Below are positions 8,097-22,365 of a DNA stretch of 22,504 bases, piece after piece (within the stretch, counting starts at the first letter, position 1; every line of letters starts with the position of its first letter). A program made the position numbers and the translations under genes. The notes beneath the pieces were generated by a model. It worked only from the letters and a program-made list of their open reading frames with translations. It had not been told where the DNA came from and searched no databases. The DNA is from a virus: positions 1-22,504 of IMG/VR virus record IMGVR_UViG_3300043099_000212; one strand, 5' to 3'.

Positions 8097-8309
8097 ATGG
8101 ACAATATCGATCAACATATTCAGAAAGATATTAGTATTCTGAATGATCCACAAACATCACCTCAGGCACGGAGACATACTGAAGAGGAACTTGAGGCACT
8201 AGAAGCATACAAAGCAAAACATCCTGATGATGACCATGACCCTACGCCATTGGAGCTTTATTGTGATGCCAATCCTGATGCATTAGAGTGTAGAGTTTAT
8301 GATGACTGA
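8097..8309 (+). CDS. cp12: CP12-like Calvin-cycle inhibitor (70 aa)
   Basis: CP12 is a small, largely disordered redox switch that clamps GAPDH and phosphoribulokinase and shuts down the Calvin cycle; phage copies are thought to push infected cells towards the pentose phosphate pathway. The diagnostic C-terminus is here: residues 51-70, PLELYCDANPDALECRVYDD, with Cys56 and Cys65 spaced C-x8-C as in the GAPDH-binding loop. The N-terminal Cys pair and canonical AWD-VEEL core are absent; EEELEALEAYK (29-39) takes the core's place. Length is normal for the phage form. The gene sits alone between an intergenic gap and a terminator hairpin. Its stop borders a promoter dyad. Confidence 0.88.
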   Translation: MDNIDQHIQKDISILNDPQTSPQARRHTEEELEALEAYKAKHPDDDHDPTPLELYCDANPDALECRVYDD

Positions 8310-8367
8310 GGACAGTTGAAAAACTGGCACAAGGGGTCTCCTGGTTCGCTGGGAGACCCCTTATAAT
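8309..8367 (+). promoter_or_regulatory. Dyad-hairpin-promoter unit before the 8394 gene
   Basis: Degenerate dyad AGGACA-N10-TGGCAC (8309-8330), then 31 bp to TATAAT at 8362-8367. A strong hairpin lies in between. The -35 position is poor, so either the dyad-bound factor or the extended A/T box must supply strength. Confidence 0.65.
8333..8360 (+). terminator. Terminator-like hairpin after cp12
   Basis: A perfect 9-bp stem GGGGTCTCC / GGAGACCCC with a 10-base loop directly follows cp12. The U-tract is short, because the following bases (TTATAATAT) already form the next promoter. Termination is likely but may be partial. Confidence 0.7.
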
Positions 8368-8393
8368 ATATGGGTAATCAACAAACGCCCCCA

Positions 8394-8807
8394 ATGGCAA
8401 CTCGCGCTCGCATCGGTCTTGAACTTGCTGATGGTTCTATCCTGTCTGCCTATCACCACTGGGATGGTTATGAAGCTTGGTTGGGTCGCATCCTGAAGAC
8501 GCACTACAATAGCAAAGAACTTGCTGCCGAACTGATTGACGGTGGTGATATGTCCTGTGCCTGGACTGATGAAGTGTTTGGGTCCGATCAGAAAACCCAA
8601 TATGGTGCTAACTACTACTCTTATCGTGGCGAAGATACTCCTCCTCGCCTTGATGCTGACCTGTGTGAATATCTTCTGCCCGACAACAGCGAAGAGTTTG
8701 CATATGTCTTCCGTAGTGGTGAATGGGTCTGCTACAATATGCACCAGTTTGATGATAGCAAACTGCCTGAAGTTGTAGAGATTCCTTCTGGAGCACTGGC
8801 GGTTTAG
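8394..8807 (+). CDS. Conserved phage MATRARIG-type protein (137 aa)
   Basis: The frame is open from ATG 8370, but TATAAT at 8362-8367 ends only two bases before it, so the transcript should begin after that codon. ATG 8394 gives MATRARIGLELADGSILSAY, and HHWDGY follows. I recall uncharacterised phage and cyanobacterial proteins starting this way with a conserved HWDGYP-like motif. The remainder is acidic with aromatic strands. Role unknown. Confidence 0.8.
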   Translation: MATRARIGLELADGSILSAYHHWDGYEAWLGRILKTHYNSKELAAELIDGGDMSCAWTDEVFGSDQKTQYGANYYSYRGEDTPPRLDADLCEYLLPDNSEEFAYVFRSGEWVCYNMHQFDDSKLPEVVEIPSGALAV

Positions 8808-8819
8808 TCCGCTTTCTGC

Positions 8820-8825
8820 TATAAT
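8820..8825 (+). promoter_or_regulatory. Promoter -10 before the 8848 gene
   Basis: TATAAT followed by ACCCAAGTAGTTGAGG, a diverged form of the leader shared by the promoters at 12185 and 13655. A small GCGG/CCGC hairpin precedes it at 8799-8812. No dyad occurs at the expected distance, one of the few exceptions in this region. Confidence 0.6.
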
Positions 8826-8847
8826 ACCCAAGTAGTTGAGGATCATT

Positions 8848-8973
8848 ATGGACCTGTCTGAACTGATGGATGAACTGCGTGAAATCGCAATGTATGATTC
8901 TGACCCCCAAGATTGGATGGGATACTTAGGAGAAGACGACTACTGGGTGCCAGATCCTGAACTGGCATACTGA
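8848..8973 (+). CDS. Very small acidic protein (41 aa)
   Basis: MDLSELMDELREIAMYDSDP is followed by QDWMGYLGEDDYWVPDPELAY, strongly acidic. It has its own promoter at 8820 and a GAGG ribosome site. Its C-terminal VPDPELAY is encoded by a dyad element serving the next promoter. Function unknown. Confidence 0.7.
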   Translation: MDLSELMDELREIAMYDSDPQDWMGYLGEDDYWVPDPELAY

Positions 8974-9005
8974 CCCCCTCAGCGGTGCCTAGGTGCCGCT
9001 ATAAT
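8947..9005 (+). promoter_or_regulatory. Dyad-promoter unit before the 9027 gene
   Basis: Dyad GTGCCA-N10-TGGCAT at 8947-8968 lies inside the 3' end of the previous coding sequence; 31 bp later comes TATAAT at 9000-9005. The intervening AGCGG...CCGCT (8981-9000) can pair and contains a GGTGCC direct repeat. Confidence 0.7.
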
Positions 9006-9026
9006 ACGTTCATACGCAACCAAGCA

Positions 9027-9467
9027 ATGACCACCACCTTCGCTGACTACGCCGCTGCTGCTGAGGCACGGAAAGACATTGCTGCTGCTGTTCTGGGGCA
9101 TACCTATGCTCTCTGTGAGGCACTGCGGCAGAACTACATTGATTACAGCATCAAGTCTCATCAAAAGTTTATTGATGACGCTGATACTCATGAGTATCAC
9201 CAGAAGCAAATTGATAAACTGAAGCAGGGCACTTGTGATTATGACTTTTTTCCTGAGACTGGTCGTAAGTATCACAAGATCATTATGAATGCGAATGGTT
9301 CGCGTTCTGTCCACGCTTTTGTAGATAAGAAGACTGGTCAAGTGTATAAGTCTGCTAGTTGGAAAGCACCTGCCAAAGGTGTTCGATTCGACCTTCGTAT
9401 CATCGAGCAGCGTGAATGGTTGCTTCAACATGCTGACTGGGCAGGTTCTTATTTGTATGCTCGCTGA
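9027..9467 (+). CDS. Conserved phage protein (146 aa)
   Basis: ATG 9027 lies 22 bases after the promoter -10; the longer frame from 8985 would start before transcription does. The N-terminus is Ala-rich and helical. The C-terminal half, GRKYHKIIMNANGSRSVHAF then VDKKTGQVYKSASWKAPAKG and ADWAGSYLY, is a segment I recognise from many cyanophage and other phage hypotheticals. It resembles a small beta-rich binding domain. Function unknown. Confidence 0.8.
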   Translation: MTTTFADYAAAAEARKDIAAAVLGHTYALCEALRQNYIDYSIKSHQKFIDDADTHEYHQKQIDKLKQGTCDYDFFPETGRKYHKIIMNANGSRSVHAFVDKKTGQVYKSASWKAPAKGVRFDLRIIEQREWLLQHADWAGSYLYAR

Positions 9468-9522
9468 CCACTTGGAAAACTGGCACAGTGGGTGCTTCAC
9501 GGCACCCCAGATGCCCTATAAT
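9465..9522 (+). promoter_or_regulatory. Dyad-hairpin-promoter unit before the 9529 gene
   Basis: Only the right half-site TGGCAC (9481-9486) is canonical. A hairpin GGGTGC/GCACCC (9490-9507) and TATAAT at 9517-9522 follow, 30 bp after the half-site. The ATG at 9529 is only six bases beyond the -10, implying a leaderless or nearly leaderless transcript. Confidence 0.6.
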
Positions 9523-9528
9523 AACATC

Positions 9529-9786
9529 ATGTTCAACACCACTCCTCAAATGTTTGACGCTGCTAAAGAAATCAACGAACTGACTGTCACCAAGTCTCTG
9601 CGCCTTCTGTGCAACGGTTTCAAGAGTGAGTTTGCTACCTTTGCACACGCTGATGAGAGAATGTGTGAGTTGCTTCACGAACTGGCAAGTGAATTTGTGG
9701 ATGCCAACATTCCTGTGGTTGATGAGGACAACCAAGTGGAACTTGCTATGATGCTGCTGGAGTCTCTGGATATTATTGCCCGATGA
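9529..9786 (+). CDS. Small helical protein (85 aa)
   Basis: ATG 9529 (MFNTTPQMFDAAKEINELTV) follows its promoter immediately, so the upstream in-frame ATG 9379 inside the previous gene is rejected. Wholly helical, with several paired hydrophobic stretches (ERMCELLHELASEFVD, ELAMMLLESLDIIA). Ends in an ATGA overlap. Not recognised. Confidence 0.75.
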   Translation: MFNTTPQMFDAAKEINELTVTKSLRLLCNGFKSEFATFAHADERMCELLHELASEFVDANIPVVDEDNQVELAMMLLESLDIIAR

Positions 9787-9869
9787 CTTGGATACTTTTA
9801 TGGATTTTACTTTCTATTCCTGTTGCAGTAATCGTTGGAAAATTAATTGAAACACCCGATGACTGCTAA
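9783..9869 (+). CDS. Tiny single-span membrane protein (28 aa)
   Basis: ATG 9783 overlaps the previous TGA. MTWILLWILLSIPVAVIVGK is a textbook membrane span followed by a short acidic tail LIETPDDC. Small membrane peptides are common in phage early regions. The hydrophobic span argues for a real product, though shortness keeps confidence moderate. Confidence 0.55.
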   Translation: MTWILLWILLSIPVAVIVGKLIETPDDC

Positions 9870-9993
9870 AGAAAAACTTCTTTTTGTTTCATCCTTCGTT
9901 TGGTTTTTGCACTGGGGTCAATGTCTTACATCACGTATTCTGGATACGGTTATTCTAAACTCCTCTGTGAGGACGTTACCACTTGGTTTCTGA
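9859..9993 (+). CDS. Possible overlapping small ORF (44 aa)
   Basis: ATG 9859 overlaps the end of the tiny membrane gene by 11 bases and gives MTAKEKLLFVSSFVWFLHWG, amphipathic to hydrophobic. It then runs 73 bases into the next gene in another frame. It may be real at the N-terminus or simply a leader ORF coupling translation to the metallopeptidase. Confidence 0.35.
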   Translation: MTAKEKLLFVSSFVWFLHWGQCLTSRILDTVILNSSVRTLPLGF

Positions 9994-10397
9994 ATAAGTT
10001 TCTGCCCCGTCATAAAATTGAGGTAGAGATTCTTCATCGTGGTCTGAAACGTGAGGAAGTTTATGGTTACTGTGACTATGTGGGTGAATCCTATCGTCCC
10101 CGTGAGTTTCTTATTGAACTTCAGACCCATATGGAGGAGGAGTTGTATATAAAAACTCTTTTGCACGAACTGGTCCATCTGCGGCAGTGGGTAGTGGGTT
10201 CGCTGCGGTCCAAGCGTGGAAAAATGTATTATGGTAAAGAACCCGTCGAAAATTACGACTATTGGCATCAACCACACGAAATTGAGGCACGAGAGCAAGA
10301 AGAAACCCTATATCTTGAGTACCTGTTTGAGAAGAATGGGTGGACGGATCATCAAGTGGCACAGTTCTTCCCCAACCGCCTGATGGTTGGTGTATAA
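9921..10397 (+). CDS. HExxH zinc metallopeptidase-like protein (158 aa)
   Basis: ATG 9921 (MSYITYSGYGYSKLLCEDVT) is chosen over TTG 9900. Residues 78-90 read KTLLHELVHLRQW: a zincin HExxH at 82-86 in a hydrophobic helix. HQPHEIEAREQE at 116-127 probably supplies the third ligand (E120 or E122), as in SprT/WLM-like mini-zincins. I recall related cyanophage proteins with HExxH followed by QPxEIEA. It may process phage or host proteins or be a nucleic-acid-bound protease; the substrate is unknown. The stop TAA is inside the next promoter's TATAAT. Confidence 0.8.
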   Translation: MSYITYSGYGYSKLLCEDVTTWFLNKFLPRHKIEVEILHRGLKREEVYGYCDYVGESYRPREFLIELQTHMEEELYIKTLLHELVHLRQWVVGSLRSKRGKMYYGKEPVENYDYWHQPHEIEAREQEETLYLEYLFEKNGWTDHQVAQFFPNRLMVGV

Positions 10398-10398
10398 T
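10341..10398 (+). promoter_or_regulatory. Half-dyad/hairpin promoter unit before the 10421 gene
   Basis: Half-site TGGCAC (10357-10362) lies in the coding end of the peptidase gene. Stem CCAACC/GGTTGG (10372-10390) and TATAAT at 10393-10398 follow, 30 bp after the half-site. The TAA at 10395-10397 is both stop codon and part of the -10 box. Confidence 0.6.
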
Positions 10399-10420
10399 AT
10401 TGAGATACTCAAAAATTACC

Positions 10421-11281: not shown

Positions 11282-11287
11282 TTCTGC

Positions 11288-11293
11288 TATAAT
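11288..11293 (+). promoter_or_regulatory. Promoter -10 before the DNA methylase gene
   Basis: TATAAT lies seven bases after the preceding stop and 23 bases before ATG 11317. No dyad occurs at the usual distance, and no hairpin separates it from the upstream gene. The methylase may therefore be controlled differently and also receive read-through. Confidence 0.6.
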
Positions 11294-11316
11294 AGATCAA
11301 TTATCTTGCTATTACT

Positions 11317-12189
11317 ATGAAACCACTCTTCAAATGGACAGGCAGCAAACAGCGTATGGCAAAGCAATATGCTGACTTGTTTTACCCCGAAAAAGTCACC
11401 CGTTATGTTGACCTGTTCTGTGGTGGTCTCACTAACTTGCTGTGGGTCGCAGAACGTTATCCAAATGCAGAACTGGTCATCAATGATTTCAACAGTGAAC
11501 TCATTCTGATGTATCGCAACATCAAGACCAATACGAATGATGTTATCAGCGTCTGGAATGAATGTGTGCAGGTATGGTTGACCAAAACACCAGAAGAGCG
11601 TAAGGAATACTATTACGAACTGCGTGAGAAGTATTGCATGACTGAGCAGGATGATATTACCTATTCTGGTCTGCTGCTGTTTATGCTGCAGGTAAACTTC
11701 AACGGAATGTGGAAAGCATACATCAAATGCAATCACAGATATTCTACTCCACCTGGAACTTGTCTGCAGAAAGAGGGTTTCTTCAATGAAACTAACATCC
11801 GTGAAGTGGCAAAACTATTTCAGCGTTGTGAGATGCTAAATGAGTCATTTGAGAACGTTCCGTTACAAGATGGAGATTTTGTGTATGCAGACCCTCCGTA
11901 TCGGGACAGTGTGGTTCTGTATCAGGGTGGGTTCACCGAAGACCATCAAATTCAATTGTGTAACCTACTGACCTCACATAATGGTCATTTCGCATACTCC
12001 AACAAAGACATTCATGATGGTTTCTATGAGAAACATTTTCCTGGATGTAACATTTACGATATGACCGCTAAGTATACCGCAGGTAGAGGGACTTCTACGC
12101 TAGATGTAGCGGAAGTGCTGGTGACCAACTTTGTGCCAGCTGGACAAGTGGCACAGAACCCTCTTGAGACCGCTCTGGGTGCCCTATAA
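11317..12189 (+). CDS. dam: Dam-type DNA N6-adenine methylase, D12 class (290 aa)
   Basis: Transfers methyl from S-adenosylmethionine to adenine N6 in DNA; GATC is the usual target for this class but cannot be proved here. N-terminal FKWTGSKQRM (5-14) leads into the AdoMet loop VDLFCGGLTNLLW (31-43), with FCGG in place of FxGxG. NDF (57-59) follows, then NFNGMWKAY (127-135) of the target-recognition region and the catalytic DPPY at 192-195 in VYADPPYRDS. Length is typical. Probably protects phage DNA from host restriction or regulates phage promoters. The C-terminal VPAGQVAQ is encoded by a promoter dyad, and the TAA stop lies inside TATAAT. Confidence 0.93.
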   Translation: MKPLFKWTGSKQRMAKQYADLFYPEKVTRYVDLFCGGLTNLLWVAERYPNAELVINDFNSELILMYRNIKTNTNDVISVWNECVQVWLTKTPEERKEYYYELREKYCMTEQDDITYSGLLLFMLQVNFNGMWKAYIKCNHRYSTPPGTCLQKEGFFNETNIREVAKLFQRCEMLNESFENVPLQDGDFVYADPPYRDSVVLYQGGFTEDHQIQLCNLLTSHNGHFAYSNKDIHDGFYEKHFPGCNIYDMTAKYTAGRGTSTLDVAEVLVTNFVPAGQVAQNPLETALGAL

Positions 12190-12190
12190 T
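12133..12190 (+). promoter_or_regulatory. Dyad-promoter unit inside the methylase 3' end
   Basis: Perfect dyad GTGCCA-N10-TGGCAC at 12133-12154, wholly in coding sequence. TTGAGA at 12164-12169 is a plausible -35, followed after 15 bp by TATAAT at 12185-12190. The methylase stop codon is bases 3-5 of the -10 box. Confidence 0.75.
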
Positions 12191-13448: not shown

Positions 13449-13652
13449 ATGACTGAAACAACTGTACAACTGAATGTTCATGAAATTGGTGTGATTCTAT
13501 CTGCACTGCAGTTACTTGGAGTCAGGGAAGAACATCAAATCGCAAGAGAATATGGAAGTGTGCCAGCACTGTATAACAAACTTTACACGGTGTTTGAGCA
13601 GATGGACACTTCGCAAACTGGTCTACGGAACGACGTGGTGCCGTCCTTCTGA
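13449..13652 (+). CDS. Conserved cyanophage small protein (67 aa)
   Basis: ATG 13449 (ATGACTGA) is used rather than TTG 13434. The sequence LNVHEIGVILSALQLL, then YGSVPALYNKLYTVFEQMDT and RNDVVPSF matches a conserved cyanophage hypothetical in my memory. Helical throughout. A hairpin and promoter follow directly. Confidence 0.75.
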   Translation: MTETTVQLNVHEIGVILSALQLLGVREEHQIAREYGSVPALYNKLYTVFEQMDTSQTGLRNDVVPSF

Positions 13653-13660
13653 CCTATAAT
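13603..13660 (+). promoter_or_regulatory. Weak-dyad promoter unit before the 13687 gene
   Basis: The dyad slot holds TGGACA-N10-TGGTCT (13603-13624), strongly degenerate. An imperfect stem ACGGAAC/GTGCCGT (13625-13644) and TATAAT at 13655-13660 follow, 30 bp after the dyad slot. The downstream leader is the copy-2 repeat. Confidence 0.55.
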
Positions 13661-14275: not shown

Positions 14276-14454
14276 TGGACCAGAAGACAAAACTCATTCT
14301 GGCACAGATGCAGGTTGAGAACATTTACAATCTTCTCAAGGATGGGCAGTATGCTGGTTTCTTTTCATCACATTTGTTTCCCGTCAAGTTTGAGATTCAA
14401 AGACAACTTGCAAACTTGACAAACACTGAGCGTCATACTAAAATAAAGGAGTAA
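14275..14454 (+). CDS. Small helical protein (59 aa)
   Basis: ATG 14275 (TGATG junction) is chosen over TTG 14272. MDQKTKLILAQMQVENIYNL then DGQYAGFFSSHLFPVKFEIQ and RQLANLTNTERH reads as a helix-turn-helix-helix shape without a recognised family. AAGGAG overlaps its stop. Confidence 0.65.
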   Translation: MDQKTKLILAQMQVENIYNLLKDGQYAGFFSSHLFPVKFEIQRQLANLTNTERHTKIKE

Positions 14455-14467
14455 TTTACACATACCA

Positions 14468-14698
14468 ATGAAATCTCTTTACATTGTTGACTACTGGGTT
14501 CCGTTTCCATCTTCTGAGTATGGTGGAGTCGTTTCACTGATTGCTGAGAATGACACGGAAGCATTTGAACTTCTTGCAGAAGAAGAAGGTTTTGATGAAC
14601 GTTATCAGAATCTGATTATGCCAAACGTTGTCAAGGCACAAAAGTTTGCTCTTGTGGATGAGTATGAATCTGGTATCATTGATGCATTTACGACCTGA
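14468..14698 (+). CDS. Conserved cyanophage small protein (76 aa)
   Basis: MKSLYIVDYWVPFPSSEYGG followed by VVSLIAENDTEAFELL is an N-terminus I recognise from cyanophage hypotheticals of ferredoxin-like length. The AAGGAG at 14446-14451 is 16 bases away, further than ideal. The C-terminus ends ESGIIDAFTT. Five bases separate it from the next gene. Confidence 0.75.
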   Translation: MKSLYIVDYWVPFPSSEYGGVVSLIAENDTEAFELLAEEEGFDERYQNLIMPNVVKAQKFALVDEYESGIIDAFTT

Positions 14699-14703
14699 TA
14701 ACC

Positions 14704-14865
14704 ATGGAAAAACTTTATCGTCTTGAAGAACTGACCACCAGCGGTTGGGAACTGGTGGATGTTGATACTGTTCAACTGACCAAAGAACAAGCAAGTGCAA
14801 AGTTAAATGACCTCATTGCCGAAGGATACAATCCAAACCGTCTCCGTGCCGTTGTCGATGCTTGA
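14704..14865 (+). CDS. Conserved cyanophage small protein (53 aa)
   Basis: MEKLYRLEELTTSGWELVDV, then LTKEQASAKLNDLIAEGYNP and NRLRAVVDA: a widely conserved short cyanophage protein in my memory (WEL... LTKEQ ... GYNPNRLRAV). Probably a small alpha/beta unit. Overlaps the next gene by eight bases. Function unknown. Confidence 0.8.
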   Translation: MEKLYRLEELTTSGWELVDVDTVQLTKEQASAKLNDLIAEGYNPNRLRAVVDA

Positions 14866-15136: not shown

Positions 15137-15380
15137 ACCCAGTTTGAATGACTATGTTTCATGGACCAAAGGTGTTGAGGGGTGGGTATACTTTGCCGAT
15201 AAGGAGTACATCACCATTGAGACCAATGTGTTTCCAAAAGATGAACAAAACATTCAAGCATGTTCACTGCACAAAAACAACAGAGTGCTTGTGCTTTGTT
15301 ACAAAGAACAGTGGAGTCAATTAGAGTATGTCGGATACCGTACTGATAAATATTCAGAAGAGATTCTTTCAGAGAAGTAG
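15129..15380 (+). CDS. Conserved small phage protein (83 aa)
   Basis: ATG 15129 (MYKPSLNDYVSWTKGVEGWV) is used rather than TTG 15117. The order YVSWTKGVEGWVYFADKEYI, a Cys-x-LHKNNRVLVLCY segment and QWSQLEYVGYR recalls a small SH3-like beta-barrel family found in many cyanophages. Might bind nucleic acid or protein; unproven. Its stop shares one base with the next GTG start. Confidence 0.75.
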   Translation: MYKPSLNDYVSWTKGVEGWVYFADKEYITIETNVFPKDEQNIQACSLHKNNRVLVLCYKEQWSQLEYVGYRTDKYSEEILSEK

Positions 15381-16045
15381 TGAACGACATACAAGAAGGC
15401 AGAAAAGACCCGTTTGCAAAACATGCCCTTGAGAAAGGATTTGAACTTGTGCGTGATACGGGAAAGCACAACATTTGGAAGCACTCTTCTGGAGCACAGA
15501 TCACATCACCAAAAACAACAAGTGACTGGAGATCATTCAAGAACTTTCAGGCAGAGTTAAAGTCACGTCTTTCACAGTTTGGTGTGACACCAAAACCAGT
15601 TGCTCAGGCACCACAAGCAAAACCAGTTGCACAACCAAAACCATCTGAATCTTCTGCCTCCGAAAGAGAACGGTATTCATCAGGTCAAGCATTAAGAACT
15701 GGAACACAAACAACATTCAAAGACTTTCTAGCAAAGATTCAACAGGCAAAAGAAAAAGCAACACCAGTCAAAGCAACATTATCTGCAAGAATGGCTGCTG
15801 CCTATGACCGCAACCAGGATAAGATTCCACTCACTGCTCAACTCAAGTATCGACCAGGAATGAGAACATCAACTGGTGTTGGTCTGGCAGACTCTTATGT
15901 ACCAGAACAAATGACTGCTCCAAAGTTAATGAATACCAATGTTCTGGATACAAGAACCACAAAAGAAAAGCAAAAGGAAATAAAGATTGAAGCAGACCTA
16001 CTTCCATACAACCCTGACATCGGCAAACGTTATAAAGTTCCATGA
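15380..16045 (+). CDS. HicA-like domain protein with Ala/Pro/Gln linker (221 aa)
   Basis: GTG 15380 overlaps the preceding TAG; no better start is nearby. Residues 16-60 (ALEKGFELVRDTGKHNIWKH, then SGAQITSPKT) match the dsRBD-like HicA fold: GF-x-LVR, G-x-H (His30, the catalytic position in HicA toxins) and a terminal helix. Residues 70-90 are a low-complexity PKPVAQ repeat linker, then an unstructured charged C-terminus. No HicB-like antitoxin is adjacent, so this is more likely an RNA-binding phage protein than a toxin. The extension beyond about 65 residues is unusual for HicA. Confidence 0.7.
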   Translation: MNDIQEGRKDPFAKHALEKGFELVRDTGKHNIWKHSSGAQITSPKTTSDWRSFKNFQAELKSRLSQFGVTPKPVAQAPQAKPVAQPKPSESSASERERYSSGQALRTGTQTTFKDFLAKIQQAKEKATPVKATLSARMAAAYDRNQDKIPLTAQLKYRPGMRTSTGVGLADSYVPEQMTAPKLMNTNVLDTRTTKEKQKEIKIEADLLPYNPDIGKRYKVP

Positions 16046-16363: not shown

Positions 16364-16563
16364 TACCTGTTTATTGTATTCTTTCAACACTTATTGGATA
16401 TTCACTCTCTGGTGCAGTGACACATCAGTCAACGGTCAATCAAACACTCAAGTTGTGCAATGAACGTCCATTAGAATGCAAGTTCAAGTATGATATTCTG
16501 ATGTATACCGAGACTGGTAAAGTTCCGTATAAGGCAACAGTTCAACCAAAGAACCAAAAGTAA
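16303..16563 (+). CDS. Membrane-anchored protein with conserved tail (86 aa)
   Basis: Span at about 19-39 (FLIPVYCILSTLIGYSLSGA) after a basic N-terminus. The outer part (LKLCNERPLECKFKYDILMY followed by TETGKVPYK) has two cysteines and a YDILMY-ETGKVPYK motif I associate with cyanophage proteins. The start could lie further in; ATG 16303 is the only ATG before the span. It ends tail-to-tail with the endonuclease gene, overlapping it by 22 bases. Confidence 0.7.
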   Translation: MGTTREETRVHRLRNRTSFLIPVYCILSTLIGYSLSGAVTHQSTVNQTLKLCNERPLECKFKYDILMYTETGKVPYKATVQPKNQK

Positions 16564-17318
16564 CCCTTCCAACTGTACTTACCAGGGTTCTTCAGACTTT
16601 TGAGAATGCTGTGTTTATCAGTACATTCAAAGGCACGAACAGCAGCGTTAATACTTTCATAACGGGGACCAATCAACCCCGTTTTTTTATGGACACCAAA
16701 TACCGATCTTTTATTCTTCTTCTCTTCTAATAATTGCCATTTGTATCCGTATGCAGTTCTACCAGTTTTGGCAGCAAGTAGAATGTTAGAATTGTTTCGC
16801 GGATTACCTGTCACTTGTTCTGCTGCGACTCTTGCATTTTCATAGTCAGTACATAAACCAGTATCTAAGTTCTTACCTCTTATTTTAATACCAAAGTGTT
16901 TACCATCTCCTCTATTCTCTTCATTCCATTGTATAAGGTGTGGTGATGACTTATATGTTCTTTCTTTTTTAGGTTTAGGTATCTCGCTATCGCTCAACCC
17001 TACGGGTTCCCGCTTTTCCTGCATTGAGATTACCGTTTTTTCTACATTAGTAACAATAAGATTGTATTCAGGTTTATATTTGTCTATCCATTCATTGAGT
17101 TTGTTCTCTAAACAGGTATCATCGTATTCATCTAACTCTTTGATCATAAAGTTATGCACACCATATTGTCTGAATGCCTTATGTAAAGGTTCAGATGACA
17201 TTCTTTTAGAACGGTCGATGTGGTGTACCCATTCTTTATTCATCGCAAGTGTGGTGTTTCCGACGTATTTTTCACCTGTTTGCTTGTTGAGAATGAGATA
17301 GATGATGCCTCTTTCCAT
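16542..17318 (-). CDS. GIY-YIG homing-type endonuclease (258 aa)
   Basis: Cleaves DNA at a long recognition site, normally to spread its own gene. The GIY-YIG core is at the N-terminus: GIIYLI (4-9) and YVGN (18-21), a basic helix WVHHIDRSKRM (30-40) and a likely metal-binding Glu in CLENKLNEWIDKYKPEYNLI (E71/E76). Two related DNA-binding repeats follow, residues 143-197 (GIKIRGKNLDTG ... AYGYKWQLLE) and 207-257 (GVHKKTGLIGPR ... YSWKGYFWF), NUMOD-like. It is the only minus-strand gene. It appears free-standing: no intron was seen in the flanking genes. ATG 17318 follows a TACAAT by five bases, suggesting a leaderless mRNA. Confidence 0.9.
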   Translation of the reverse strand: MERGIIYLILNKQTGEKYVGNTTLAMNKEWVHHIDRSKRMSSEPLHKAFRQYGVHNFMIKELDEYDDTCLENKLNEWIDKYKPEYNLIVTNVEKTVISMQEKREPVGLSDSEIPKPKKERTYKSSPHLIQWNEENRGDGKHFGIKIRGKNLDTGLCTDYENARVAAEQVTGNPRNNSNILLAAKTGRTAYGYKWQLLEEKKNKRSVFGVHKKTGLIGPRYESINAAVRAFECTDKHSILKSLKNPGKYSWKGYFWFFG

Positions 17319-18000: not shown

Positions 18001-18153
18001 ATGCTAGCACAAAAACGCATCATACAGGTAACACTAGACATCATGTGTTATGATGATCTAGATCTAGATAATATTAATTGGCGTGACTTACTCGAACTCG
18101 AACCAGGTGAAGATATCCATTGTAGGGTACAAGAGTTCGATCCGTTCGAGTAA
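18001..18153 (+). CDS. Small protein with LD-rich core (50 aa)
   Basis: MLAQKRIIQVTLDIMCYDDL then DLDNINWRDLLELEPGEDIH and CRVQEFDPFE: beta strand, acidic turn, helix LLELEPGED, strand. The layout resembles the 2888 gene product and other short cyanophage proteins I recall. It has no Shine-Dalgarno in a 30-base leader. The TAA stop overlaps the dyad at 18153. Confidence 0.7.
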   Translation: MLAQKRIIQVTLDIMCYDDLDLDNINWRDLLELEPGEDIHCRVQEFDPFE

Positions 18154-18178
18154 TGTGCCAGTTTAAATATTGGCACAT
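18153..18178. promoter_or_regulatory. Orphan dyad next to the 30-bp palindrome
   Basis: Perfect 8-bp arms ATGTGCCA / TGGCACAT around 10 bases. Unlike the other dyads it is not followed by a -10 box at 30-32 bp. The palindrome 18185-18214 begins exactly where the -35 box would stand. A TATAAT at 18181-18186 lies immediately after it. Confidence 0.75.
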
Positions 18179-18184
18179 GATATA

Positions 18185-18214
18185 ATTCTCAATAAGGCGC
18201 GCCTTATTGAGAAT
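18185..18214. repeat. 30-bp perfect palindrome, right boundary repeat
   Basis: Arms ATTCTCAATAAGGCG and its complement meet without a loop, giving an AscI-type GGCGCGCC centre. The outer 11 bp of each arm match the inverted repeat at 17458-17489. There is no T-run, so it is not a standard terminator. Candidates: recombination or insertion boundary, or binding site of a dimeric protein. Confidence 0.9.
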
Positions 18215-18235: not shown

Positions 18236-18298
18236 GTGGCGATGTATTTTCGTCTACAGGGATACCTCTCCCCTCATTGAATTTGTTATAAGATATCA
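18236..18298 (+). other. Repeated non-coding element, copy 1
   Basis: About 60 bases alignable with 21275-21334: shared blocks GTGGCGA, TTTTC, CAGGGATACC, CCCCTC and TTGT, with a one-base indel that breaks any common reading frame. Both copies come before a GTGCCA dyad (26 and 31 bases later). Possibly a small RNA or leader; no clear stem is conserved. Confidence 0.55.
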
Positions 18299-18326
18299 CG
18301 GCAGATGGTCCCGATCAAGGGGTCTT

Positions 18327-18385
18327 GTGCCAGTTTGTCTAGTGGCACAAGGGTGGTTGCAACCTACCAGGTGATGGGTTAGTGT
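18327..18385 (+). promoter_or_regulatory. Dyad-promoter unit before the 18407 gene
   Basis: GTGCCA-N10-TGGCAC (18327-18348; arms extend to nine bp, CTTGTGCCA). Eight bp later comes TTGCAA (18357-18362), then a 17-bp spacer and TAGTGT (18380-18385). The -35 sits at the centre of an imperfect palindrome around GGTTGCAACC. Confidence 0.75.
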
Positions 18386-18406: not shown

Positions 18407-18619
18407 ATGACTCTCTCCAACCAAACTATTCAGAAACTCGCTGATGCTTTGACCCCTGAAGTGGTTGATTATATTTTTGCTGATGAACGTTGGGTAGACT
18501 TTATGCAAGAGATCATTCCTGATGCTATTCAGGCAAAGATGGGTGATGTTGATGATGACATTCGTTTTGACCTTTCATTGTGCATTATGGACCGTATCTA
18601 CATGAAGAGTGCCAGTTGA
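18407..18619 (+). CDS. Small acidic helical protein (70 aa)
   Basis: ATG 18407 (MTLSNQTIQKLADALTPEVV) preferred over TTG 18404. Helical, with FADERWVDFMQEIIPDAIQA and a closing DLSLCIMDRIYMKSAS. Its overall plan is like the 19375 gene product (MTLT ... short acidic helices), perhaps distant paralogs. The terminal Ser-Ala-Ser and stop are encoded by the next dyad. Confidence 0.75.
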   Translation: MTLSNQTIQKLADALTPEVVDYIFADERWVDFMQEIIPDAIQAKMGDVDDDIRFDLSLCIMDRIYMKSAS

Positions 18620-18666
18620 GAAAGTGTCACAGGGTATGTTGCAAGGTCCCTGGTTTCGTGTATTCT
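18609..18666 (+). promoter_or_regulatory. Dyad-hairpin-promoter unit before the 18688 gene
   Basis: GTGCCA-N10-TGTCAC (18609-18630), eight bp, TTGCAA (18639-18644), 16 bp, TATTCT (18661-18666). A CAGGG/CCCTG stem (18630-18652) encloses the -35. The stop TGA of the preceding gene lies in the dyad's central N10. Confidence 0.75.
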
Positions 18667-18687: not shown

Positions 18688-18981
18688 ATGTTCACCACCA
18701 CTGTTTACTTCGGTGCAAACATTCCTGATGCAGGTGAAGTGAATGCAGTAATGTTCTCTTCGTTTTTGAAAGAAATCATTCAAGAAAACCTGACGGGGTT
18801 TACACTCACTGAGGGTTATGGTTGTTGGAATGGTGAATACGAAAAGGTTCGTATTCTCACTGTTATCTCTGAGGAAATGTTGGATGAAGTGTTGATCATT
18901 GCAGACGAGTATAAGAAACAGTTTCGTCAGGAATGTGTCATGGTAAATGTTGTTCAAAACCACGCATTCTGTTTGGTGTGA
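18688..18981 (+). CDS. DUF3574-like small protein (97 aa)
   Basis: MFTTTVYFGANIPDAGEVNA, then FSSFLKEIIQENLTGFTLTE and GYGCWNG: the order strand-YFG-N, helix F-L-E, GFT, G-W resembles the DUF3574 ferredoxin-like layout and short cyanophage relatives I recall. The later part (KKQFRQECVMVNVVQ) provides a further strand. Function unknown. It has its own dyad promoter and CTTCAATG start context. Confidence 0.7.
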   Translation: MFTTTVYFGANIPDAGEVNAVMFSSFLKEIIQENLTGFTLTEGYGCWNGEYEKVRILTVISEEMLDEVLIIADEYKKQFRQECVMVNVVQNHAFCLV

Positions 18982-19036
18982 CAGTCTGACAAGTGGCACA
19001 AGGGGGGTTGCAATGCCCCCCAGACCCTGATACATT
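18978..19036 (+). promoter_or_regulatory. Dyad-hairpin-promoter unit before the 19061 gene
   Basis: GTGACA-N10-TGGCAC (18978-18999), eight bp, TTGCAA (19008-19013), exact 17-bp spacer, TACATT (19031-19036). The -35 box forms the loop of a six-bp G/C stem (19002-19021). The TGA stop of the preceding gene overlaps the left half-site. Confidence 0.8.
19002..19021 (+). terminator. G/C hairpin whose loop carries a -35 box
   Basis: Stem GGGGGG/CCCCCC with loop TTGCAATG. No U-tract follows, so terminator strength is uncertain; it matches the stronger hairpin at 19600 in design. Confidence 0.6.
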
Positions 19037-19365: not shown

Positions 19366-19374
19366 TACAAACTC

Positions 19375-19590
19375 ATGACTCTCACTTCCCAACAACTTGA
19401 CCAACTCATTGAAAACTACGCTGAGCGTATTGTTGATGAGATGGACGTTAAGTGTTTGATTCAGTTTGCGTATGATACGATTGTTGAGAACTTCGCAGGT
19501 AAATCTGAGGAGGATGTTCTCACTGAGATTTCGTATGTGTATGATGAAGATGTGATTCAAGAACTGATTGAGAGTGTGACAGTTGAATAA
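19375..19590 (+). CDS. Small acidic helical protein (71 aa)
   Basis: MTLTSQQLDQLIENYAERIV then VKCLIQFAYDTIVENFAGKS and EDVLTEISYVYDEDVIQELI. Similar in plan to the 18407 product. The terminal VTVE and TAA stop fall inside the next dyad. Ribosome site weak. Confidence 0.7.
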   Translation: MTLTSQQLDQLIENYAERIVDEMDVKCLIQFAYDTIVENFAGKSEEDVLTEISYVYDEDVIQELIESVTVE

Positions 19591-19634
19591 GTGGCACAAG
19601 GGGGGTTGCGTCCCCCCTTTTTTCGTGCAATACT
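19576..19634 (+). promoter_or_regulatory. Dyad-terminator-promoter unit before the 19658 gene
   Basis: GTGACA-N10-TGGCAC (19576-19597), eight bp, -35 TTGCGT (19606-19611) as the exact hairpin loop, 17 bp, -10 AATACT (19629-19634) with TG one base upstream. The clearest example of the compressed design. Confidence 0.8.
19600..19623 (+). terminator. Intrinsic terminator with -35 box in its loop
   Basis: GGGGGG (19600-19605), loop TTGCGT, CCCCCC (19612-19617), then six T. A textbook intrinsic terminator for the 19061-19590 transcript; the loop doubles as the -35 of the following promoter. Confidence 0.88.
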
Positions 19635-19645
19635 AAGATCACAAA

Positions 19646-19662
19646 CAAAGGGATCTGATGAC
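19646..19662 (+). repeat. Leader/start repeat, copy 1
   Basis: CAAAGGGATCTGATGAC, covering ribosome site, start codon and second codon start, is identical to 22134-22150 in front of an unrelated gene. Confidence 0.8.
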
Positions 19663-20017
19663 TTACAAATGCCCCCGTTGTTCCACATTCGTGAAAGATT
19701 GGGAAGGTGATGATCCTAAATGTGGTTTTGATGAGAATGGTAACTTTCTAGAACGCAACTGGTGTTGTGCAACTCTCACCGCATTGCGTGAGATGGCAGA
19801 AGAGAATGAAGTGTGGTGTGATGATCATTATATGGCGATTGTGAGTCGTTCTGATGTTGGTCACGGTGTTCTCAGTTGGTATAAGCATCGTGGGCAAACT
19901 GATGATTTTCGTGATAGAAACTTTGAACGTGGCACGTTATATTATGCTCAGCAACTTCTGGGTGATGTAGAACCTGATTTTAGTGGTTGGGAAAATGTAA
20001 ATCTGGATGACTTGTGA
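19658..20017 (+). CDS. Zinc-ribbon-like protein (119 aa)
   Basis: N-terminal CPRC (Cys5, Cys8), then Cys22 and the pair Cys36-Cys37 (NWCCATL) suggest one zinc site. The rest is a compact alpha/beta region (ALREMAEENEVWCDDHYMAI, GVLSWYKHRGQTDDFRDRNF) and an acidic tail. Might bind nucleic acid through the ribbon; not established. Strong AAGGGATC ribosome site; its TGA overlaps the next dyad. Confidence 0.75.
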   Translation: MTYKCPRCSTFVKDWEGDDPKCGFDENGNFLERNWCCATLTALREMAEENEVWCDDHYMAIVSRSDVGHGVLSWYKHRGQTDDFRDRNFERGTLYYAQQLLGDVEPDFSGWENVNLDDL

Positions 20018-20072
20018 CAGTTGAGGAACTGTCACACACCCCCTTGCAGACCTCCTTTTTTCGTGCAATACT
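20014..20072 (+). promoter_or_regulatory. Dyad-promoter unit before the ligase-like gene
   Basis: GTGACA-N10-TGTCAC (20014-20035) with extended perfect nine-bp arms GTGACAGTT/AACTGTCAC. Eight bp later TTGCAG (20044-20049), 17 bp, AATACT (20067-20072). A T-run (20056-20061) precedes the -10 as in the 19600 terminator, but the G/C stem is lost. ATG 20079 is six bases on, implying a leaderless mRNA. Confidence 0.75.
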
Positions 20073-20078
20073 AACAGT

Positions 20079-20975
20079 ATGAAAAACACACACCTCGAAC
20101 ACCCCGAAGATACCATCCTGACGGGTGACCTTTCGGTTCTTGATTGGTTCACTGCAAAGGGTCATCTTTCTGTGAAGATTGATGGTGCTCCTGCTATCGT
20201 GTGGGGTATTGACCCTGCCACGGGTACATTTTTCGTGGGCACCAAAGCAGTCTTTAACAAGAAAAAGATTCGTATTGCTCACTCTCACGAAGAGGTAGAT
20301 GCATTTTATGATGGCAACGTTGCACAGATTCTGCACTGTTGCTTTGATAGTCTGCCCCGTACTGAGACAATCTATCAGGCAGACTTCATCGGGTTTGGTG
20401 GACTGAATGAGTACACTTCCAACACCATTACCTATCAGTTCGGTGACATTGTAACGCAAAGCATCATCATCGCTCCGCACACTTGCTATTATGCTGAGAG
20501 CGATCTTCGTGACGCTGTTGCATTCCCTGACCGTGCTATCTGGAATGATACTGAGCACGTGAAGTTCGTGAAACCGAATGCATACATCCTGCACAATCAG
20601 GAGTCGTTCGCTGATGTTGAAGAGGTCTGCAACTTTGCCCGTCAAATGGCAACCACTGCCACCTTTGTGAGTGATAAGGAAGCGACAAAGATCAAACAAC
20701 AGATCAATGCCTGCATTCGTGCTGGTGAAGAAGTCAACCCCAAAGACTTTGATTGTGACATTAACCTGCTGCGTCTGTGGGCATTGGTGAAGTCTATCAA
20801 AGATGATTGTTTGTTCCTCTGCCGCAATGATGGTCCTGCCGCTTACATTAACGGCAACCGAATTGATGCCGAAGGTTATGTCATGACCAATGAGTTTGGT
20901 ATGTTCAAACTGGTCAATCGTGAGGTCTTCGCTTATCATAACTTCAACAGCGGACGCTTTCAGTGTGCCAGTTGA
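20079..20975 (+). CDS. Ligase-family nucleotidyltransferase (298 aa)
   Basis: Shows the covalent nucleotidyltransferase motifs of ATP-dependent DNA/RNA ligases in order: motif I K33-I-D-G36 in LSVKIDGAPAIVWG (Lys33 would carry AMP), FFVGTKAVFNKKK (51-63), motif III-like YQADFIGFGG (99-108), motif IV EGYV (265-268) and motif V FKLVNR (276-281). The N-terminal THLEHPED is typical of a phage family I recall as DUF6267-like, annotated as a possible ligase. Likely seals or caps nucleic-acid ends, for example RNA repair after host tRNA cleavage; substrate unknown. The start is fixed by the conserved N-terminus despite being almost at the transcription start. The last residues C-A-S come from the next dyad. 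Confidence 0.82.
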   Translation: MKNTHLEHPEDTILTGDLSVLDWFTAKGHLSVKIDGAPAIVWGIDPATGTFFVGTKAVFNKKKIRIAHSHEEVDAFYDGNVAQILHCCFDSLPRTETIYQADFIGFGGLNEYTSNTITYQFGDIVTQSIIIAPHTCYYAESDLRDAVAFPDRAIWNDTEHVKFVKPNAYILHNQESFADVEEVCNFARQMATTATFVSDKEATKIKQQINACIRAGEEVNPKDFDCDINLLRLWALVKSIKDDCLFLCRNDGPAAYINGNRIDAEGYVMTNEFGMFKLVNREVFAYHNFNSGRFQCAS

Positions 20976-21024
20976 ATAGGTGGCACACTGCCACCCCCGA
21001 TCCTGCCGCCTGACCCCTTATACT
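20965..21024 (+). promoter_or_regulatory. Dyad-promoter unit before the 21052 gene
   Basis: The strongest dyad: perfect ten-bp arms CAGTGTGCCA/TGGCACACTG (20961-20990) around ten bases. The -10 TATACT (21019-21024) lies 32 bp after the core and is directly preceded by CTGACCCCT, also present before the -10 at 21821 and 22360. No good -35. Confidence 0.75.
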
Positions 21025-21051
21025 GGTTTCATACCAAACGAACCAAACCGA

Positions 21052-21228
21052 ATGCGTTACGATGTGATCTGCCCCTCCGCTCCCTGGGAGAACACGACCA
21101 CTGATGAGGATCGCGCCTACGATCTGTGCTACAGTCTGTCTGAGGATTACGGTTACTGTGAGATCCGTTGCAATGGGATTGTGATCGCAGACTATGGCAA
21201 CCCTGCCACCTTTCTGGGGTGGCGGTGA
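21052..21228 (+). CDS. Small hypothetical protein (58 aa)
   Basis: ATG 21052 is 28 bases past its -10. MRYDVICPSAPWENTTTDED, then LCYSLSEDYGYCEIRCNGIV and IADYGNPATFLGWR: an alpha/beta unit with four cysteines. Codons are clearly GC-richer than in the 5' array. Function unknown. Confidence 0.75.
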   Translation: MRYDVICPSAPWENTTTDEDRAYDLCYSLSEDYGYCEIRCNGIVIADYGNPATFLGWR

Positions 21229-21261
21229 CGCCCTCCCTTTTTTGCGATGCTTTTTATAATT
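21203..21261 (+). promoter_or_regulatory. Degenerate dyad and promoter before a non-coding stretch
   Basis: CTGCCA-N11-TGGCGG (21203-21225) overlaps the end of the 21052 gene; TATAAT at 21256-21261 follows 30 bp later. No ORF starts downstream for 240 bases, so the transcript may be a non-coding RNA covering the element at 21275. Confidence 0.5.
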
Positions 21262-21274
21262 TAAGGCTGCTCCC

Positions 21275-21334
21275 GTGGCGACCTTTTTCATCCTCAGGGA
21301 TACCCCGCCCCTCCTTCGCTTGTGACCTTATCAT
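21275..21334 (+). other. Repeated non-coding element, copy 2
   Basis: Aligns with 18236-18298 through GTGGCGA, TTTTC/TTTTTC, CAGGGATACC, CCCCTC and TTGT. TATAAT at 21256-21261 would start transcription just before it, consistent with a short RNA. Identity is too high for chance but no fold is obvious. Confidence 0.55.
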
Positions 21335-21365
21335 AGAGCCCCAGCACCCCCTGACCAGCCACCCT

Positions 21366-21424
21366 GTGCCACTTTTTGAACTGGCACAGACCCCGTTGAT
21401 CTGACCCCCAGCCCGTGCCATACT
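21366..21424 (+). promoter_or_regulatory. Dyad-promoter unit before the 21505 gene
   Basis: GTGCCA-N10-TGGCAC (21366-21387, arms eight bp), eight bp, TTGATC (21396-21401), exact 17-bp spacer, CATACT (21419-21424). The N10 here (CTTTTTGAAC) is the inverted-orientation version of the usual GTT...AAG centre. Confidence 0.75.
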
Positions 21425-21430
21425 ATGTTC

Positions 21431-21504
21431 ACCAGGGGGGAGGAAAGAGGACCCCCCAAGGGCAGAGGTGAGGACTGCCCACCCCAAAGCATTTCAATCG
21501 ACCC
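21431..21504 (+). promoter_or_regulatory. Structured 5' leader
   Basis: Two consecutive hairpins: GGGGGG (21435-21440)/CCCCCC (21452-21457) and GGGCAG (21460-21465)/CTGCCC (21475-21480), each with a purine-rich loop. At about 75 bases it is much longer than neighbouring leaders and may control translation or protect the mRNA. Confidence 0.5.
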
Positions 21505-21651
21505 ATGGCACTGACCCGCTACGAAGTCCGCTACCAGGTCCCCTACAACAATTGTGAGTGGCGGTCGCAATGGTTCCCCACCCTTGACGAAGCGGAACGC
21601 ATGGTAGAATTCTACCGCTCCTGTGGTTCCCCCGCTCACCTGGCACCATGA
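21505..21651 (+). CDS. Small hypothetical protein (48 aa)
   Basis: MALTRYEVRYQVPYNNCEWR, then WFPTLDEAERMVEFYRSCGS: strand, strand, helix. The AERMVEFYRSCG helix resembles short phage proteins of unknown role. No clear Shine-Dalgarno. Overlaps the next gene (ATGA). GC-rich codons. Confidence 0.7.
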   Translation: MALTRYEVRYQVPYNNCEWRSQWFPTLDEAERMVEFYRSCGSPAHLAP

Positions 21652-21815
21652 TCAAAGCCCTGACCCGTTCCCGCTCCGCAGACTTCCACCGTGCTACCAT
21701 GCTCCGCCTGACCGTTGGTGCTCTGCTGCTGTGGTTGCTCTGGGAACCGATTCGCCCCGTCCGCCATGTGACAGCTCAGGCACTGTACACTGCAGGCGAC
21801 CTGATCGCCCGCTGA
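21648..21815 (+). CDS. Small single-span membrane protein (55 aa)
   Basis: Membrane span at 19-35 (LRLTVGALLLWLLWEPI) after a basic N-terminus, then an outer RPVRHVTAQALYTAGDLIA. I recall similar LRLTVG-LLWLLW cyanophage proteins. An internal ATG at 21699 is a possible alternative start. HVTAQALYT is encoded by a degenerate dyad, and the stop TGA is part of CTGACCCCT. Confidence 0.75.
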   Translation: MIKALTRSRSADFHRATMLRLTVGALLLWLLWEPIRPVRHVTAQALYTAGDLIAR

Positions 21816-21826
21816 CCCCTTACAAT
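21768..21826 (+). promoter_or_regulatory. Degenerate dyad and promoter before the 21851 gene
   Basis: GTGACA-N10-TGTACA (21768-21789) in coding sequence, then 31 bp to TACAAT (21821-21826), immediately preceded by CTGACCCCT. Confidence 0.6.
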
Positions 21827-21850
21827 ACTCTCAGTTCACAAGCGAACCAC

Positions 21851-22102
21851 ATGAAAGTCCAGCAAGTCGGCAGCAACCAAACCGAGGTGACCCTGGCAGA
21901 CGGGACCTGCATCCTGTTCTCCTATGATCAACCCGTCGCCGCCATCGTCCCTGGCAAGGGTTGGATCCGCACCGCTTACCAGTGGAGCGCCACCACCACG
22001 AAGCACGTTAACGCCTGGATTCGCAAGCATCGCGGCAACTACGTGATCGATGAGGTCGCCCGTGTGCCACAATGGGATCTGGATCAGTTGGTGGCGTTCT
22101 GA
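21851..22102 (+). CDS. Conserved small phage protein (83 aa)
   Basis: ATG 21851 lies 24 bases past its -10; the longer frame from 21623 predates transcription. MKVQQVGSNQTEVTLADGTC, then LFSYDQPVAAIVPGKGWIRT and TTTKHVNAWIRKH form a beta-rich domain. I recognise SYxxPVAA-VPG-G-xxT ... T-HVNxW from many phage and some bacterial hypotheticals. Function unknown. The C-terminal VPQWDLDQ coincides with the next dyad. Confidence 0.8.
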   Translation: MKVQQVGSNQTEVTLADGTCILFSYDQPVAAIVPGKGWIRTAYQWSATTTKHVNAWIRKHRGNYVIDEVARVPQWDLDQLVAF

Positions 22103-22122
22103 GGGGCGCCACCCCCTACAAT
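22064..22122 (+). promoter_or_regulatory. Dyad-promoter unit before the 22146 gene
   Basis: GTGCCA-N10-TGGATC (22064-22085) in coding sequence, 31 bp to TACAAT (22117-22122). GGGGC and CCACCCCC in between could pair weakly. Confidence 0.6.
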
Positions 22123-22133
22123 AGGATCAACCG

Positions 22134-22150
22134 CAAAGGGATCTGATGAC
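22134..22150 (+). repeat. Leader/start repeat, copy 2
   Basis: Seventeen bases identical to 19646-19662, spanning ribosome site and start codon. Confidence 0.8.
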
Positions 22151-22346
22151 TGACGCTCAAAAGATTGAGGCACTGACTGATCTCCTCTCCACTGTGATTA
22201 ATACTTTGGAACTCACAAAGTATGACATTGAGGATGTAACTGAGTCTCACAATGTAGTGGTCAAAGCTGATGCTTACCACCAGCAGATGATCGACATTCT
22301 TCACGGTGTGCCAGATGAGGAAGTGGCACAAAGCACCGCCGCCTGA
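22146..22346 (+). CDS. Small hypothetical protein (66 aa)
   Basis: MTDAQKIEALTDLLSTVINT, then LELTKYDIEDVTESHNVVVK; helical with an acidic middle. The ribosome site AAAGGGATC is strong. The C-terminal GVPDEEVAQSTAA contains the peptide imposed by a perfect dyad; compare VPAGQVAQ in the methylase. Confidence 0.75.
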   Translation: MTDAQKIEALTDLLSTVINTLELTKYDIEDVTESHNVVVKADAYHQQMIDILHGVPDEEVAQSTAA

Positions 22347-22365
22347 CCCCCTGACCCCTTACAAT
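22308..22365 (+). promoter_or_regulatory. Dyad-promoter unit before the 22389 gene
   Basis: Perfect GTGCCA-N10-TGGCAC (22308-22329) wholly in coding sequence, then 30 bp to TACAAT (22360-22365), preceded by CTGACCCC twice (22343-22350 and 22351-22358). The TGA stop of the previous gene is in the first copy. Confidence 0.75.

Follow-up and report, generated by a model that had tools for sequence, protein, structure and literature searches.

How do T4-like cyanophages time the expression of their genes without MotA, AsiA, Alt and Mod? The absence of these four proteins from T4-like cyanophages is stated in one publication (PMC2984593) and the lack of motA and asiA in another (PMC5780444), where Doron et al. 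2016 are also quoted as the source for middle promoters of the T4 kind being absent in cyanophages. According to the first of these publications, early transcription probably uses host sigma-70, middle regulation in cyanophages is unclear, and a putative middle promoter is present in P-SSM4 and Syn9 but not in P-SSM2 or S-PM2 (PMC2984593). We addressed this question starting from IMG/VR virus record IMGVR_UViG_3300043099_000212 (positions 1 to 22,504), the whole of which is referred to here as the window. A sequence-only reading of the window had listed 17 sites of a 22-bp dyad, GTGMCA-N10-TGKCAC, each at a fixed distance from a −10-like box. As described below, the dyad forms the core of a palindromic element that recurs in T4-like cyanophages of both ocean and lake hosts and may serve there as the binding site of a putative activator.

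A palindrome with rigid geometry

The occurrence of the dyad in the window is real and far beyond chance. Ten perfect copies are present, compared with a mean of 0.013 and a maximum of one in 300 dinucleotide shuffles, and the reversed pattern, which served as a control, does not occur. When up to one mismatch was allowed and a −10 was demanded 29-32 bp away, seven sites were found in the window and none in 20 shuffles.

The geometry of the element was established with ten cyanophage genomes in addition to the window. In this set, the half-sites are separated by exactly ten bases at 78 sites, while each other gap between 4 and 18 accounts for zero to two; reversed and direct arrangements of the half-sites at gap 10 are absent. 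The postulated symmetry around exactly ten central bases is thus borne out. A sample of 120 IMG/VR stretches, taken among the matches listed, was retrieved with GTGCCASTTNNNNAASTGGCAC, which means that each stretch contains one or more sites whose letters at these positions are predetermined. The scanning profile was trained exclusively on sites of these IMG/VR stretches, spans the dyad together with the −10 and was applied with a threshold of 15 bits. The extended 24-bp consensus reads TGTGMCASTT-N4-AASTGKCACA. It is followed by a weak −35 element, approximately TTSCAA, situated 17 bp upstream of a TATAATA-like −10. The two halves of the palindrome are not equally conserved: in 154 profile matches the promoter-proximal half is perfect in 133 and the distal half in 79.

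For 415 unique dyads with at most one mismatch, the spacer to the −10 measures 30 bp in 223 cases, 31 in 148, and 29 and 32 in 22 each, in a count that admitted only offsets 29-32. An open scan of 437 dyads in both directions (874 readings) yielded 109 at offset 30, 68 at 31 and 17 at 32, against zero to six per offset elsewhere up to 75 and up to 11 between 76 and 86. Since only five readings fell on offset 41, the distance to the −10 does not change in clear 10-bp steps. The best −10 offset among the 154 profile matches was 30 in 61 and 31 in 62. The spacing rule thus recurs in DNA outside the window, which the sequence-only reading had not covered. If the −10 hexamer starts at −12, the dyad is centred at about −53.5, in agreement with the position near −54 that had been proposed.

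Sites of the window

The sites in the window are given below, with the extent from dyad to −10, the strand, the spacer and the profile score.

8309..8367, plus strand: right-half site 8309-8330 (left half with two mismatches); −10 TATAAT at 8362-8367, spacer 31; 35.1 bits
8947..9005, plus strand: dyad with one mismatch 8947-8968; −10 TATAAT at 9000-9005, spacer 31; 25.8 bits
9465..9522, plus strand: right-half site 9465-9486; −10 TATAAT at 9517-9522, spacer 30; 35.0 bits
10341..10398, plus strand: right-half site 10341-10362; −10 TATAAT at 10393-10398, spacer 30; 20.9 bits
12133..12190, plus strand: perfect dyad 12133-12154 within the 3' end of the D12 methyltransferase open reading frame (ORF); −10 TATAAT at 12185-12190, spacer 30; 36.8 bits
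13603..13660, plus strand: weak slot 13603-13624 (two mismatches left and three right, 5/12); −10 TATAAT at 13655-13660, spacer 30; no profile match of at least 15 bits; may be an ordinary promoter
18119..18176, minus strand: perfect dyad 18155-18176; leftward −10 TACAAT at 18119-18124, spacer 30; 24.4 bits on the minus strand
18290..18348, no single strand assigned: perfect dyad 18327-18348; leftward −10 TATCTT at 18290-18295, spacer 31; 28.4 bits on the minus strand, partial match on the plus strand
18609..18666, plus strand: perfect dyad 18609-18630; −10 TATTCT at 18661-18666, spacer 30; −35-like TTGCAA; 28.3 bits
18978..19036, plus strand: perfect dyad 18978-18999; −10 TACATT at 19031-19036, spacer 31; 32.3 bits
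19576..19634, plus strand: perfect dyad 19576-19597 with a G/C hairpin in the spacer; −10 AATACT at 19629-19634, spacer 31; E 7e-9 in one search, yet absent from the matches of at least 15 bits
20014..20072, plus strand: perfect dyad 20014-20035; −10 AATACT at 20067-20072, spacer 31; 28.1 bits
20965..21024, plus strand: perfect dyad 20965-20986; −10 TATACT at 21019-21024, spacer 32; 29.9 bits
21203..21260, plus strand: weak slot 21203-21224 (one mismatch left and five right, 6/12); −10 TATAAT at 21255-21260, spacer 30; no profile match of at least 15 bits; probably not a site
21330..21424, no single strand assigned: perfect dyad 21366-21387; rightward −10 CATACT at 21419-21424 (spacer 31), leftward TATGAT at 21330-21335 (spacer 30); 31.9 bits on the minus strand, E 5e-6 on the plus strand
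21768..21826, plus strand: left-half-only site 21768-21789 (no mismatch left, three right); −10 TACAAT at 21821-21826, spacer 31; no profile match of at least 15 bits
22064..22122, plus strand: left-half-only site 22064-22085 (no mismatch left, two right); −10 TACAAT at 22117-22122, spacer 31; no profile match of at least 15 bits
22308..22365, plus strand: perfect dyad 22308-22329; −10 TACAAT at 22360-22365, spacer 30; 32.1 bits

Thirteen of the 17 sites listed by the sequence-only reading hold, namely nine perfect dyads, one with a single mismatch and three with a perfect right half, while the four at 13603, 21203, 21768 and 22064 are weak and lean mainly on a good −10. The perfect dyad at 18155, the −10 of which is on the minus strand, was absent from that list. 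Sixteen of the 17 listed sites do have, 30-32 bp past the dyad, a hexamer with at most two mismatches to TATAAT. The exception is 18327, where the rightward hexamer has three mismatches; the leftward TATCTT is better and the site reads leftward. At random positions of the window, a hexamer with at most one mismatch falls within the four offsets in 3.2% of cases and one with at most two mismatches in 19.6%. Given these rates, the weaker −10s of 18609, 18978, 19576, 20014 and 21366 prove little individually. Immediately to the right of dyad 18155 lies a 30-bp perfect palindrome around GGCGCGCC (18185-18214).

Arrangement of the element in both directions

The orientation of the dyads was evaluated for 445 unique perfect copies. 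A −10 in register is present on one side in 272, on both sides in 28 and on neither side in 145. Six sets of control offsets gave a one-sided −10 in 91 of 2670 cases and a two-sided −10 in none. In the window, 18155 and 18327 read leftward, and dyad 21366 is, from its sequence, a candidate divergent promoter; a further candidate of this kind is at 66592 in P-SSM2.

Distribution among phages

Whole records of 17 phages were scanned. Perfect dyads were present in 11 of them: ACG-2014f (27), S-CRM01 (11), P-SSM2 and P-TIM40 (6 each), S-PM2, P-HM2 and S-SRM01 (5 each), Syn9 (2), and P-SSM4, Syn33 and S-RSM4 (1 each). None was found in S-CAM7, T4, Ma-LMM01, HTVC008M, P-SSP7 or S-TIM5, and the reversed control did not occur in any of the 17. 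Profile scoring, which left out S-RSM4, P-SSM4 and P-SSP7, revealed 4-38 matches of at least 15 bits in each of the ten T4-like cyanophages scored, including nine in S-CAM7 despite its lack of perfect dyads, seven in P-TIM40 and five in Syn9. S-TIM5 yielded three, and no such match was obtained for T4, Ma-LMM01, HTVC008M or ten Markov shuffles. HTVC008M, which infects Pelagibacter and belongs to the family of the T4-like cyanophages scored, is without the element. Carriers infect both Synechococcus and Prochlorococcus and share the same consensus. A variant is present in S-TIM5, the record of which names Synechococcus WH 8102 as the host and is not filed under Kyanoviridae: GGCCC replaces GGCAC in six of the seven matches listed (S-TIM5 163777-170893).

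The sequence-only reading had proposed a phage-wide set of promoters, a view that is not supported: matches cluster in several phages and none precedes the replication and structural genes tested. Within 35 kb lie 35 of the 38 matches of at least 15 bits in ACG-2014f, 9/9 in S-CAM7, 16/17 in P-SSM2, 17/21 in S-SRM01, 14/20 in S-CRM01, 7/9 in P-HM2, 6/7 in P-TIM40, 7/11 in S-PM2, 3/5 in Syn9 and 3/4 in Syn33. The first 50 kb of ACG-2014f contain 16 perfect dyads, each located 79-178 bp upstream of an annotated coding sequence start, on the strand indicated by its −10. With a threshold of 10 bits, matches were found upstream of the DUF6267 gene in seven of ten phages, as is the case in the window (dyad 20014), and also upstream of genes for a CobS-like protein (five phages), a helicase (three), a peptidase (two), psbA (one) and gp32 (one). 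No match of at least 10 bits was present in the ten phages upstream of gp43, gp41, gp46, gp45, uvsX, nrdA, hsp20, gp20 or gp18; gp23 was left out of this comparison, as the method did not find it. In Syn9 and P-TIM40 the element is mostly situated upstream of small genes without known function. The element mainly precedes small genes of a region that, judged from gene content and the literature, is probably early.

A putative activator site and its alternatives

We propose, with a probability of about 0.72, that the sites belong to host-sigma promoters and are bound near −54 by a putative dimer, probably encoded by the phage. The sites would represent one promoter class of T4-like cyanophages, in which host RNA polymerase carrying the main sigma factor would read a TATAAT-like −10 and an at best weak −35 element. 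The 24-bp palindrome would bind a dimer that, placed at a constant distance, contacts the polymerase and activates transcription. The promoter-nearer half would carry more weight, and one palindrome could serve two divergent promoters. Such promoters would mainly serve the cluster of small early-region genes. The factor would be of phage rather than host origin, being either synthesized early or brought in with the virion. The sequences themselves establish the element, its exact geometry, its distribution and its arrangement in both directions; protein binding, activation in preference to repression, early timing and the phage origin of the factor are inferred from them. Symmetry and rigid spacing speak for the sequence-specific dimer postulated before; the binding protein itself is putative, and the gene comparisons described below did not reveal it.

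Some observations weigh against this proposal. Of the 445 unique perfect dyads, the 145 mentioned above are without a good −10 on either side. An ORF starts within 150 bp after 132 of 141 matches, but so it does after 83% of same-strand positions chosen at random within 5 kb, so this proximity says little. Should the genes served be immediate-early, a factor of phage origin would have to be packaged in the virion beforehand. Finally, gene co-occurrence, seeded with the ORFs of Syn9, S-CRM01 and P-HM2 and comparing ten element-bearing with four other phages, did not reveal an activator-like factor: four families were present in 10/10 and, as searched, in 0/4, namely MazG, the Syn9 gp172 ORF, a lectin-like ORF and a DUF3110 ORF, the Syn9 member of which did match HTVC008M, and none of them looks like an activator.

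Other candidates for the factor were also considered. Syn9 gp136 (phrog_507; L397 2193-2507; relatives L404-L483), a protein of 104 residues encoded near head genes in Syn9, was the best helix-turn-helix-like lead by eye. Its family is strongly conserved in nine of the ten T4-like cyanophages and in the distant S-TIM5. It is absent from S-CRM01, which has 20 element matches, and its low-confidence predicted model (mean predicted local distance difference test score 69) did not match a known fold; this lead was dropped. No convincing DNA-binding activator emerged from Pfam and PHROGs searches, each on ten core proteins; a marginal helix-turn-helix match of the CobS-like protein (E 0.0088) was below the cut-off.

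The recurrence of a palindrome within one promoter class would likewise be compatible with the operator of a phage repressor that shuts early promoters later in infection, and dyad 18155 has a plus-strand TATAAT 5 bp away. Binding sites of repressors commonly reach into the core promoter and differ in position, whereas the element is located upstream of about −43, clear of both −35 and −10 and at a rigid distance from the latter, and it is accompanied by a weak −35, as is typical of activator-dependent promoters. We consider a repressor quite improbable on these grounds. A host regulator whose site is exploited by the phages appears unlikely as well. It would account for a single consensus across Synechococcus and Prochlorococcus phages, early promoters have to use what the host offers, and the strict 24-bp pattern does occur 14 times, in 14 of 400 Cyanobiaceae genomes (reversed control 0), with a −10 in register at two of these sites (L341, L348). 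However, 14 sites per 400 genomes do not make up a regulon, and a common gene context was not seen. Four of the 14 have common flanks, like the ends of one repeated element, and the L348 contig carries an Api92-like gene and is perhaps mobile DNA. A half-site with a correctly spaced TATAAT was detected six times in 151 host genomes (control 2) versus 34 times in 16 phage records (control 0). Thus, a host regulon was found neither with the strict pattern in the 400 Cyanobiaceae genomes nor with the half-site and TATAAT in the 151 host genomes. These counts argue against a regulon of the host but leave room for an individual host protein as the factor. The GGCCC variant in S-TIM5, recorded on Synechococcus WH 8102, may indicate that the factor differs from phage to phage.

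Could the dyad act as an RNA hairpin at the 3' end of the upstream transcript, where it would signal termination, processing or attenuation? In several cases, such as 30103 and 36297 in ACG-2014f, the dyad shares bases with the end of the preceding gene, and a second G/C-rich hairpin frequently follows the dyad (mean spacer energy −6.0 versus −4.2 kcal/mol in shuffled sequences). If the dyad formed an RNA hairpin, its pairs should covary. In perfect sites, pair 4/19 is uncoupled (A-T in 12 of 325, 13.6 expected), and pair 7/16 is mostly non-complementary, with 133 G-G and 86 C-C compared to 47 G-C and 42 C-G (219 versus 89). The odds ratio for pair 7/16 is 5.1 overall and 7.8 with one site per contig, kinship not being fully removed. 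Compensatory stem pairs are thus missing, and an RNA belonging to the upstream gene would not require the following −10 to be at a set distance, or the dyad to be flanked by a −10 on each side. Judged from these substitution patterns, the dyad is a DNA site and not an RNA hairpin; the hairpin role was rejected as highly improbable. Least credible of all is a repeat or a replication or packaging site that lies between genes by chance. The clustering of the element in one genome region in most phages scored would fit, while the rigid −10 spacing and the complete lack of two-sided −10s at control offsets would not.

The spacer between dyad and −10 often contains a G/C-rich inverted repeat resembling an intrinsic terminator, e.g. 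at 19598-19628 in the window. Its folding energy is below −6 kcal/mol in 43% of cases versus 31% after shuffling, as if a terminator and the next promoter had been fused.

Sites in cellular sequences

A scan of a genome-contig collection returned 107 sites in 104 stretches, a raw tally that at first looked rich in cyanobacteria. By eye, the flanks suggested mobile-element ends in several. A −10 is in register at 11 of the 107 sites, in nine stretches. Three of these sites are in L316, which is filed as Flavobacteriales, contains a phage-like module and could be phage DNA that was misbinned; the other eight exceed the three to four predicted from the control-offset rate. Cyanobium (L247, L311) is presumably the only known host genus among the genome-contig sites. 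At sites in the cellular assemblies L218, L234, L257, L269, L279, L292, L293, L295 and L341, a −10-like hexamer stands in the same register as in the phages, which may reflect chance, misbinned phage DNA or real cellular use. GTGMCA...TGKCAC palindromes with common flanks in cyanobacterial genomes (L223, L284, L342, L344-L346) are perhaps mobile-element ends unrelated to phage promoters.

Relation to known systems

Doron et al. reportedly described in 2016 (ISME J 10:1437) a novel regulatory element controlling early genes in Syn9, with similar results in P-TIM40 and conservation among T4-like cyanophages. Both Syn9 and P-TIM40 carry the present dyad, and identity of the two elements is likely. 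The window sites are probably members of that element, which would then not be new. The statement of the sequence-only reading that no cyanophage factor with this site is known thus holds for the factor, whereas the early-gene element itself has reportedly been described. The dyad motif is neither named among the literature matches listed nor stated in the available parts of related papers. Possibly new are the exact palindrome with its gap, its two-way use, the greater weight of the proximal half, the avoidance of complementary bases at 7/16 and the absence of a host regulon.

Like the middle promoters of T4, which depend on a MotA box and AsiA, the element combines a phage-specific upstream site with a sigma-70 −10 in a T4-like phage and would depend on an activator. 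In contrast, MotA boxes are located near −30 and are not palindromic, and T4 is without a profile match. Sites for CRP and NtcA resemble the element as palindromes upstream of sigma-70 promoters with TGTG at the outer edge. They differ in that CRP recognizes TGTGA-N6-TCACA and NtcA GTA-N8-TAC, usually centred near −41.5 or −61.5, while here ten bases separate GTGMCA and TGKCAC and the centre is near −54. With a gap of exactly ten in 78 sites, the earlier distinction from both families is upheld.

It is tempting, though rather doubtful, to assume that a dimeric phage activator carried in the virion turns on early genes from either side and so replaces Alt and MotA/AsiA of T4. The element would be of more than modest novelty only if the factor turned out to be carried in the virion. 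Even if the element was described in 2016, its palindrome, spacing and half-site weighting, together with the absence of a host regulon, help to focus the search for the factor, and the exact 24-bp site at a fixed promoter distance offers a bait for the binding protein. The element also supplies a two-way promoter module and a rule by which early genes of uncultured phages could be recognized.

Gene content and relatives of the window

The 22.5-kb virus record encodes DUF6267, DUF7717 and D12 methyltransferase proteins and many small ORFs without assignment. Thirty database records share DNA with it and every one is a Synechococcus phage; among the 20 of the 30 records listed, the matching parts are 14435-14751 and 19575-19635 only. 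Gene content and these DNA matches place the window with the T4-like cyanophages. A relaxed search with the 19575-19635 site (E up to 10, chance matches included) gave 227 records, 213 of which are named Synechococcus, Prochlorococcus or Cyanophage.

20079-20975: DUF6267 gene, preceded directly by dyad 20014

An ORF at 16542-17318 on the minus strand, opposite to its neighbours, is GIY-YIG-like (E 0.004, under the Pfam cut-off) and probably encodes a homing endonuclease. Weak matches, likewise under the cut-off, were obtained to SprT for the ORF at 9900-10397 (E 0.0013) and to HicA toxin for that at 15380-16045 (E 0.003).

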